NCBI GenBank assembly: GCA_023473595.1
Contig: JAMCYV010000029.1
Span: forward strand, 1-35,181
Length of the DNA stretch: 35,181 nt
Reading direction: 5' to 3'
Source of the DNA: Patescibacteria group bacterium
Lineage (GTDB): Bacteria > Patescibacteriota > CPR2 > UBA1875 > JAMCYV01
Shown here: positions 13,059 through 23,791 of the stretch, piece by piece
Layout of the letters: every line of letters starts with the position of its first letter
Numbering within the stretch: position 1 is the first letter of the stretch
Translations under genes and position numbers: made by a program
The notes under the pieces: generated by a model
What the model was told of the DNA's origin: nothing
The model's input: only the letters and a program-made list of their open reading frames with translations
Databases searched by the model: none

Positions 13059-13102
13059 AACAATAATAAATTTCTAATTTCAAATGTCAAATTGGGCTAA
13101 AA

Positions 13103-13138
13103 TGGTTCAAAATTTTGCTATAGCAAAATTTTGAACCA
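13103..13138. repeat. 36-bp perfect palindrome TGGTTCAAAATTTTGCTATAGCAAAATTTTGAACCA
   Basis: Self-complementary along its length; second copy at 15061-15096. Confidence 0.95.
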
Positions 13139-13205
13139 AAAACAAAAACTCCTTTCTTTTTATGTTTGGCTTAATTATAATTAAATTTGGCCTTAATTAG
13201 AGAAG

Positions 13206-15014: not shown

Positions 15015-15060
15015 CCTTTATTACTAAAACAGTAGGGATAATAAACTAAAACAAAGACCA

Positions 15061-15096
15061 TGGTTCAAAGTTTTGCTATAGCAATATTTTGAACCA
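15061..15096. repeat. Second copy of the 36-bp palindrome (2 changes)
   Basis: TGGTTCAAAGTTTTGCTATAGCAATATTTTGAACCA. Confidence 0.93.
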
Positions 15097-15151
15097 ATAG
15101 TTTTATAGTTTTTAGCGTACGATTTAGCTTTATTTCTCTCATTAGTTAAAG

Positions 15152-18648: not shown

Positions 18649-18708
18649 GTCATCCTGAACTTGATTCAGGATCCAAAAGCATAGTTTCCGGATCAAGTCC
18701 GGAATGAC
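18649..18708 (+). repeat. Palindromic GTCAT...ATGAC element, copy 2 (double hairpin)
   Basis: GTCATCCTGAACTTGATTCAGGATCC...GGATCAAGTCCGGAATGAC with sub-hairpins CCTGAA-cttga-TTCAGG and CCGGA-tcaag-TCCGG. Confidence 0.8.
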
Positions 18709-20215: not shown

Positions 20216-20301
20216 GTTATTCCGACCGACTTGTCCTGCAAAGCTTTAGCGTCGTAGGAAGTGGAGGAATCTAATAGATCCCTCGACAGGCTCGGGATGA
20301 C
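20216..20301 (+). repeat. Palindromic element, copy 3 (pyrK-pyrD intergenic)
   Basis: GTTATTCCGACCGAC...GAAGTGGAGGAATCTAATAGATCCCTCGACAGGCTCGGGATGAC. Confidence 0.85.
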
Positions 20302-22076: not shown

Positions 22077-22129
22077 GTCATTCCGACCTAAGTGGAGGAA
22101 TCTAGATCCCTCGGCAAGTTCGGGATGAC
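22077..22129 (+). repeat. Palindromic element, copy 4 (compact reference copy, pyrF-pyrC intergenic)
   Basis: GTCATTCCGACCTAAGTGGAGGAATCTAGATCCCTCGGCAAGTTCGGGATGAC; the two halves are imperfect reverse complements meeting at TCTAGA. Confidence 0.9.
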
Positions 22130-22141
22130 GGGTTTAAAAAT

Positions 22142-23314
22142 ATGTCGAAGTTAGTTAGTTTGCCGGGGATTGTCGACCCCCATGTTCATTTCCGAACTCC
22201 AGGAGGAGAGCACAAAGAGGATTTTCAAACAGGATCCAGCTCTGCCTTAGCTGGCGGTGTTAAATTCGTCTTAGATATGCCGAATACTAATCCCGCAACA
22301 ACAACCAAAGAAGCTTTAGAATGGAAAGAAAAACAAATAGAAGTTCTTTATAGTCATTCTGGCGACCAAAGGGAGTCCAGAATCATAAATAAAGAAGAGA
22401 GTGCAGATCCTGGACAAGCCAGGATGACTAATTCGGAAGAATCTTGCTTAAATTTTGGTTTTCATTTCGGCGCTACCAATGACAACTTGGAAAAGATTAA
22501 AAAAGTAGAAGAAGAAATAGCTTCTATCAAAGTTTACTTTGGTTCTTCGACCGGCGATCTTTTGGTTAATGATTTGGAGGTTTTAGAAAAATTAATGATT
22601 GAAACTTCAAAAATTATAACTGTTCATGCCGAAGACGAAGAGATTATTCAGAAAAATATCGCAAAATACAGAGATACAAATAGGCCGGAAATACATTCGC
22701 TTATCCGCGATCCGGACTCAGCCGCTAGTGCTGTCGAAAAACTTTTGAAATTGGTAAAAAAGACCGGGCACAAGGTTTATTTTTGCCATATTTCAACCAG
22801 AGATGAGATTGATCTAATAAGAAAAGCGAAGAATGAGGGTTTGCCCGTCTATGCTGAAGCGACACCCCACCATTTATTTCTAGATGACAGCGCTTATAAA
22901 AAATGGGGCAATTTTGTGAAAGTAAATCCGCCTCTTAGAAGTCAGGAACATGTTGAAGCTTTGTGGGAAGCAGTTCATGATGGAACGATTGATTGTCTGG
23001 GCAGCGACCATGCGCCACATCTGCCGAAGGAAAAGGAACAAGATTATTGGCTAGCGCCTTCAGGTATCCCAGGTACTGAAACAATGCTTCCTTTAATGTT
23101 AAATGCAGTTAATGAAGAAAGGTTAAGTTTGGATAGGTTAATCGAGCTTATGAGTACAAATCCGGTGAATATATTTGGTTTAGATGTTTCCGATAAAAAA
23201 ACAATCGTTGGTTTGGATTTAACAAAAGAGGTTAAAATAGAGGAATTGCATTCAAAATGCGGCTGGTCGCCATATGAAGGAATGAAACTTAAAGGCTGGC
23301 CAGTTTTTCAGTAG
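22142..23314 (+). CDS. pyrC: Dihydroorotase with an apparent in-frame repeat insertion
   Basis: GIVDPHVHFRTPGGEHKEDFQTGSSSALAGG, MPNTNPATTT, HAEDE, HISTRDEIDLI, EATPHHLFL, GSDHAPHL. Confidence 0.94.
   Translation: MSKLVSLPGIVDPHVHFRTPGGEHKEDFQTGSSSALAGGVKFVLDMPNTNPATTTKEALEWKEKQIEVLYSHSGDQRESRIINKEESADPGQARMTNSEESCLNFGFHFGATNDNLEKIKKVEEEIASIKVYFGSSTGDLLVNDLEVLEKLMIETSKIITVHAEDEEIIQKNIAKYRDTNRPEIHSLIRDPDSAASAVEKLLKLVKKTGHKVYFCHISTRDEIDLIRKAKNEGLPVYAEATPHHLFLDDSAYKKWGNFVKVNPPLRSQEHVEALWEAVHDGTIDCLGSDHAPHLPKEKEQDYWLAPSGIPGTETMLPLMLNAVNEERLSLDRLIELMSTNPVNIFGLDVSDKKTIVGLDLTKEVKIEELHSKCGWSPYEGMKLKGWPVFQ
22353..22428 (+). repeat. Palindromic element, copy 5, inside the pyrC reading frame
   Basis: GTCATTCTGG...CCAGAATC...AGATCCTGGACAAGCCAGGATGAC; translated as SHSGDQRESRIINKEESADPGQARMT between IEVLYS and NFGFHFGAT. 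Confidence 0.8.
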
Positions 23315-23387: not shown

Positions 23388-23434
23388 GTCATCCCGAGCT
23401 TGTCGAGGGATCTCTCCACTTCGGTCGAGATGAC
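23388..23434 (-). repeat. Palindromic element, copy 6 (opposite orientation)
   Basis: GTCATCCCGAGCTTGTCGAGGGATCTCTCCACTTCGGTCGAGATGAC; minus strand reads GTCATCTCGACCGAAGTGGAGAGATCCCTCGACAAGCTCGGGATGAC. Confidence 0.9.
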
Positions 23435-23479: not shown

Positions 23480-23767
23480 ATGGCAAATGACTATTATATC
23501 TACTTTTTAACAAACCAAAATAATAAGGTTATTTATATAGGGGTCACAAATAATCTTAAAAGAAGGGTTTATGAACATAGAATAGAATTGATTGACGGTT
23601 TTACAAAGAAATACAAATGCAAGAAATTGGTCTATTTTGAGGGTACAAAAAGTATTATATCTGCATTAGAAAGAGAAAAGCAGTTGAAAAAGTGGCGAAG
23701 GGAGAAGAAAGATGATCTTGTTAATCAATTAAATCCTGATTGGAAAGATCTTTATGAAAGTATTTAG
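23480..23767 (+). CDS. Small stand-alone GIY-YIG nuclease family protein
   Basis: 95 aa; YYIYFLTNQNNKVIYIGVTNNLKRRVYEHR...ALEREKQLKKWRREKKDDLVNQLNPDWKDLY; GGAGG SD at 23468-23472, 7 nt before ATG. Confidence 0.95.
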   Translation: MANDYYIYFLTNQNNKVIYIGVTNNLKRRVYEHRIELIDGFTKKYKCKKLVYFEGTKSIISALEREKQLKKWRREKKDDLVNQLNPDWKDLYESI

Positions 23768-23791
23768 ATCCCTCGACAAGCTCGGGATGAC
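23766..23791 (+). repeat. Right half of split palindromic element, copy 7; overlaps the GIY-YIG stop codon
   Basis: AGATCCCTCGACAAGCTCGGGATGAC is the exact reverse complement of 23388-23413. Confidence 0.95.

Follow-up and report, generated by a model that had tools for sequence, protein, structure and literature searches.

A translated REP dimer in a patescibacterial dihydroorotase and a REP-bracketed GIY-YIG nuclease as candidate mobiliser of its family

Introduction

How does a palindromic repeat come to lie in frame in the middle of a metabolic enzyme, and what moved it there? The question is raised by pyrC, a dihydroorotase gene in the stretch of DNA analysed here (35,181 nucleotides from a Patescibacteria group bacterium; hereafter the window). 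Palindromic repeats with a CGTC tag form a REP superfamily to which dRS3 of Neisseria and RPE-4 and RPE-6 of Rickettsia belong (Di Nocera 2013, PMC3733652); the tag is an unpaired CGTC, TGTC or CCTC flanking the palindrome on one side, and the known hosts are Neisseria, Rickettsia, Wolbachia and many Alphaproteobacteria, among others. Four families with stems of 8–9 bp, loops of 4–5 nt and an unpaired tail fitting CCA have been described, the superfamily spans five phyla, and in-frame inserts of 20–30 aa are on record (PMC3733652). According to the survey that defined them, these repeats apparently have no dedicated transposase (PMC3733652). In-frame CGTC REPs are already known, and taken alone the pyrC insert is another member. 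The parallel first drawn for it, with Rickettsia palindromic elements, is closer than was claimed, as RPE-4 and RPE-6 are themselves CGTC REPs (PMC3733652). Going beyond that earlier note, we find copies in many genes and a link between the family and a GIY-YIG gene that has a copy in the window itself; this nuclease link suggests what moves a class of repeat thought to be without an enzyme of its own.

The insert in PyrC

The sequence at 22353–22428 (GTCATTCTGG...CCAGAATC...GATCCTGGACAAGCCAGGATGAC) is, in letters and coordinates, exactly as first read, with GTCAT/ATGAC ends and two 7-bp hairpins (ATTCTGG/CCAGAAT and ATCCTGG/CCAGGAT) that contain zero mismatches. The loops measure 14 nt on the left and 5 nt on the right, and both stems start with AT, the units beginning ATTC or ATCC and ending GAAT or GGAT. 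An A adjoins the GTC tag at either end of the dimer, and the unpaired CCA tail found in many nuclease-bracketing units is absent from the pyrC units. Two of the copy's three forward frames are closed, and the gene runs in the third, open one. No stop interrupts 22142–23314, the 390 aa are read through the insert, and the product matches TIGR00857 above the cut-off, so the repeat does lie in frame in an open dihydroorotase gene, as had been proposed. The coordinates of this and the other features are collected in Table 1.

Table 1. Features of the window that bear on the pyrC insert and the neighbouring nuclease gene
Feature	Position	Strand	Details and basis
Intergenic REP dimer of another subtype than the pyrC copy, same family	18649..18708	.	
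REP copy between pyrimidine operon genes	20259..20301	.	
Intergenic REP dimer, ATTCCGA..ATCCCGA subtype	22077..22129	.	just upstream of pyrC
pyrC (class I dihydroorotase)	22142..23314	+	390 aa; TIGR00857, PF01979; frame intact through insert
31-codon insertion relative to 19 homologues	22343..22435	+	residues 68–98; MAFFT alignment, PDB alignment, pLDDT
CGTC-type REP dimer, tags outward	22353..22428	+	76 bp; encodes residues 71–96 (SHSGDQRESRIINKEESADPGQARMT)
Left unit, long-loop	22353..22383	+	ATTCTGG-CGACCAAAGGGAGT-CCAGAAT; genome-wide unit scan
Right unit	22407..22428	-	ATCCTGG-CTTGT-CCAGGAT; genome-wide unit scan
REP dimer left of GIY-YIG gene	23388..23434	.	
Class-1 GIY-YIG nuclease ORF, REP-bracketed	23480..23767	+	95 aa; PF01541, E=1.1e-16
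REP unit right of GIY-YIG gene	23762..23791	-	..GATCCCTCGACAAGCTCGGGATGAC

The insertion is best seen against other dihydroorotases. Among 20 sequences aligned with MAFFT, the partners being 19 homologues from Micrarchaeota, Bacteroidota, Alphaproteobacteria and other groups, the 31-residue insert is unique to this PyrC; it falls between KEKQIE and EESCLNFGFHFGAT, a position at which 0/19 homologues have a loop. The closest dihydroorotase in the PDB aligns only on either side of it. The figure of about 26 translated residues in the earlier note therefore holds for the element itself and falls short of the whole insert, about 17 bp beyond the 76-bp element being extra as well. An AlphaFold model of PyrC (mean pLDDT 89.9) drops below 50 at residues 74–93 and 97–99 and places the insert in a low-confidence surface loop from helix 56–71 to strand 104–110, so that the structural check proposed in the earlier note, whether the insert is a surface loop, came out in favour of its reading. 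As the expected metal-binding residues H16, H162, H216 and D289 are invariant in the alignment, the insert-bearing enzyme, to judge from sequence and model, probably works, with the insert as a floppy loop on its surface.

A near-repeat on the two sides of the insert (GAAGTTCTT at 22340, GAAGAATCTT at 22436) might be taken for a target duplication, a reading we did not adopt since it implies an insert of 96 bp, against the 93 bp aligned. A search at family and class level found no PyrC of the same lineage without the insert. None of the 16 genomes of the class examined holds a PyrC homologue of comparable identity, and the closest PyrC found, from Micrarchaeota, is 46% identical; together these two observations suggest that pyrC itself was acquired horizontally.

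The REP family and its in-frame copies

A scan for a GTCATYC tag followed by a 7-bp stem, covering 769 of the 775 kb of the genome, returned 111 units, compared with 5, 6 and 7 in three Markov-3 simulations, a null that rules out a chance palindrome. Many of the units form +/- head-to-head dimers with their tags outward. The window copy at 18649, to which the same architecture as the pyrC copy had been attributed, does share this dimer layout but is of a different stem/loop subtype (ATCCTGA-ACTTGAT / ATTCCGG). That the PyrC loop is a native, lineage-specific extension with a palindrome arisen by chance, or else an assembly error, is hardly credible given that its sequence places it in a family of about 105 units in this genome and that similar in-frame dimers occur in unrelated genes.

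Several further observations were made on the family. The outer flank of the units in this genome is pyrimidine-rich, with T before GTC in 71% of the 77 exact units and C in 16%, which is perhaps a target preference. At C10:24863 (Mur ligase) and C17:5419 (phosphatase-like) the ATGAC end of a REP supplies the first ATG of the next ORF, and REPs may donate start codons in this way. A separate 38-bp palindromic repeat (ATGGTTCAAAATTTTGCTATAGCAAAATTTTGAACCAA) lies at 13102–13139 and 15060–15097 of the window, with a partial third copy at C14:20244.

At least 10 genes of this genome besides pyrC carry in-frame REP copies. They include those for PpsA (PEP synthase), TruB, MiaB (two inserts), Xer recombinase, UvrC, AAG (3-methyladenine glycosylase) and a FemAB-like protein, together with a UvrD-type helicase, a DinB-like polymerase, a PilD-like peptidase and a RecG-like helicase, these last four named by inspection only; in several host genes the NCBIfam match is interrupted at the insert. 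REP clusters are nonetheless rarer in coding sequence: 15/77 fall within ORFs of 100 aa or more, and a simple gene call puts the coding share of the genome at 87%. Copies of the ATTCTGG subtype, that of the pyrC insert, lie inside ORFs more often (9/23) than those of the other subtypes (6/54; p=0.0096), and in all nine cases the long-loop unit comes first relative to the gene. Every host gene is open through its element, although lengths vary and at least two frames are used, according to subtype and loop length. It is plausible that most insertions into genes are lost by selection while stop-free copies survive. The pyrC insertion would have survived in this way, its one open forward frame being that of the gene, and the dimer would be translated as a disordered surface loop in an enzyme that probably still works.

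The hairpins formed by the element, and the fact that translational bypassing of inserts occurs in other systems, leave some room for a reading in which the insert is present in the DNA and missing from the protein, through RNA removal or ribosome skipping. We regard this as very improbable: bypassing would not require open frames in every host gene, across varied lengths and two frames, and Rickettsia proteins with an N-terminal RPE-1 are expressed in vivo (PMC3733652).

A GIY-YIG nuclease gene bracketed by REPs

Shortly downstream of pyrC, REPs bracket a small ORF (23480–23767) whose product is modelled by AlphaFold at pLDDT 91.2 and matched most closely by Foldseek to UPF0213, Slx1 and the UvrC N-domain; Y19, G21, R29, E66 and N85 are invariant in the alignment A3. 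The Tyr, Arg, Glu and Asn typical of GIY-YIG nucleases are present, and residues that catalysis would be expected to need are conserved. Elsewhere in the genome, an enlarged ATTCTGG dimer at C10:24863–25238 holds a small GIY-YIG ORF between its two units. Small GIY-YIG ORFs number 12 in the genome, and their protein sequences divide them into two classes. Class 1 is about 95 aa long, has the motif GF[ST]xKY and is bracketed by outward REP units, whereas class 2 mostly adjoins tRNA or rRNA genes and is without REP brackets; the idea that all small GIY-YIG genes are REP-linked was dropped, since only class 1 is.

A gene was scored as bracketed when it had GTCAT and ATGAC facing outward on its two sides, each no more than 160 bp away. 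By this measure 35/38 class-1 loci are bracketed in a discovery set (16 genomes of the class plus other loci), as are 48 of the 60 in a blind set chosen solely on protein similarity across 380 genomes of the phylum. The same holds for 9/805 other genes of the own genome and for 3/41 class-2 loci (Fisher p=8.5e-19 against class 1). With no tag assumed, 64% of class-1 flanks share a strong inverted repeat, compared with 15% of mismatched partners.

Class-2 ORFs lie beside tRNA genes or the 3' end of 16S rRNA, at C15:8938-9195, C8:14706-14951, C29:1007-1219, C4:12433 and C1:27677-27922. At these loci the RNA gene is apparently part-duplicated, and strong direct repeats flank 51% of the class-2 loci; this looks like homing into tRNA genes.

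Nuclease and repeat also vary together. For example, the protein group with RPTLYTGM is accompanied by the REP ATTCTGG-CTTG-CCAGAAT, the KAGSRxKK group by ATTGCGAG..GCAAT and the SESGTLY group by ATTCCGACC..GGAGGAAT. In pairs that span genera, REP similarity rises with nuclease identity (r=0.41), and none of 2000 permutations went above 0.10. At the level of genomes, class 1 is found in 69/86 of those with at least 10 REP hits as against 35/294 of the others, an odds ratio of 30, the p-values of these associations being optimistic because the genomes are related; a reversed pattern, counted as a control across the 380 genomes, gives numbers near zero. No class-1 gene was detected in the remaining 17 of these 86 REP-rich genomes (G072, G175, G282 and G299 among them), whose REPs may depend on a different partner or on a nuclease that has diverged.

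Taken together, we somewhat favour an explanation in which the insert in pyrC is a deleted, translated REP dimer, from a family mobilised by the small GIY-YIG nuclease. The insert would be a non-autonomous head-to-head CGTC-type dimer that entered the gene. In autonomous copies, the nuclease gene would sit between two REP units, and we infer that the enzyme recognises the folded REP hairpin and GTC tag, cuts there and drives copying to new sites. The pyrC dimer would then be an internally deleted, MITE-like form. Its long-loop-left, CTTGT-right layout is shared with the nuclease element at C10:24863-25238, the carrying copy of its subtype, and the pyrC copy is best read as a deleted derivative of that element.

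The matched subtypes bear on a second candidate enzyme. An association with RAYT has been described for GTAG REPs (PMC3733652), and the genome has one Y1_Tnp gene (C8:9729–10400), so that a Y1/HUH (RAYT-like) transposase might have moved the REPs, the pyrC copy included, in trans with the GIY-YIG gene as cargo. This is improbable, because CGTC subtypes track GIY-YIG subtypes and the Y1 gene has another palindrome, TTACAAAGGTCCGTCCTTTGTAA, on its two sides; as it is the only Y1 gene found, RAYT was set aside as the REP partner. The gene itself (L046) is flanked, and twice interrupted in frame, by the palindrome ACAAAGGTCCGTCCTTTGT, of which there are few other copies, with one near-copy on C19.

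A weightier challenge to mobilisation by the nuclease is that the GIY-YIG gene could be a homing parasite, which cuts REPs and copies itself into dimers while the REPs are moved by other means. GIY-YIG domains are classic homing endonucleases (PMC1564403), homing would likewise predict the bracketing, the REP specificity and the lack of relation between flanks beyond the REP homology, and some REP-rich genomes lack the nuclease gene. Such a parasite would leave the spread of the REPs unexplained, however, CGTC REPs having no other known enzyme, and the tie between nuclease presence and REP number fits a mobiliser better, though parasites need hosts too. We judge it unlikely on this evidence, yet clearly the most serious of the alternatives.

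Distribution and mobility

Both accounts can be set against genome G008, where two class-1 copies 4.4 kb apart differ by one base from (TCTCT)GTCAT to ATGACA and have unrelated outside flanks. Identity from tag to tag between unrelated flanks indicates that the unit ends at the tags. The pair fits transposition of the whole unit; it also fits homing into a pre-existing REP dimer, because the REP arms would limit the conversion tract.

Class 1 extends beyond the phylum. It occurs in 121/385 sampled alphaproteobacterial genomes and in plasmid-collection records of Sinorhizobium, Rhizobium, Azospirillum, Sphingobium, Aeromonas, Planktothrix and Neisseria gonorrhoeae, and the organisms that carry it overlap those with described CGTC REPs. 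In Alphaproteobacteria, paired terminal inverted repeats (e.g. CGTCACCCCGGCGAAAGCCGGGGTCCA) were found at 22/28 loci, against 2/28 with mismatched partners. Bracketing was weaker in a set of 20 loci enriched for multicopy Alphaproteobacteria, with paired repeats at 11/20 in an assumption-free inverted-repeat test. Under a strict GTC-hairpin rule the count for these mostly multicopy loci was 4/20, and no within-genome pair among them exceeded 80% identity. The Neisseria class-1 copy has dRS3 repeats around it but no clean outward-facing pair.

We put at about even the chances of a wider proposal: that the REP-bracketed nuclease of about 95 residues is part of a widespread mobile element and is the dedicated, subtype-recognising mobiliser of CGTC REPs (dRS3, RPE-4, RPE-6 and relatives), whose deleted derivatives persist as translated loops in conserved enzymes. 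A REP-bracketed nuclease with matched subtypes in two phyla makes the question of the missing mobiliser testable with one protein and a hairpin oligonucleotide. If the proposal is true, GIY-YIG nucleases mobilise short hairpin DNA, beyond their roles in homing or repair. The in-frame copies show a route by which repeats of this sort give the core enzymes of a reduced genome new disordered segments.

Comparison with known systems

Open-licence PubMed Central full texts yielded no earlier report of a link between GIY-YIG genes and REPs, and no description was found of the function of the GF[ST]xKY subclass. In its fold and conserved residues the REP-bracketed nuclease resembles UPF0213/Slx1-type GIY-YIG enzymes, Slx1 being a branched-DNA nuclease; the GF[ST]xKY motif sets the REP-bracketed class apart as a distinct subclass.

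The repeats themselves share with CGTC REPs the outward GTC tag, AT-starting stems, head-to-head dimers, high copy number and the presence of some copies in frame. Unlike the four described families, the pyrC units have 7-bp stems and a 14-nt left loop, and they are assigned to none of the four; unlike CGTC REPs as described, the repeats here bracket a GIY-YIG gene and their host belongs to the Patescibacteria. With the Rickettsia elements they have in common that palindromic repeats are translated in frame inside conserved proteins. RPE-1 is longer and different in sequence, however, while the copies here use at least two frames, and the pyrC copy is not classed as an RPE, since its host is no Rickettsia but a member of a small-genome phylum with 0.77 Mb of DNA. 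The arrangement as a whole recalls REPIN-RAYT systems, in which dimeric hairpin repeats go with a dedicated nuclease gene that is flanked by the same repeats and matched to them in specificity, but where RAYT is an HUH tyrosine transposase and its repeats carry a GTAG tag, the nuclease here is of the GIY-YIG type and the tag is CGTC/TGTC.
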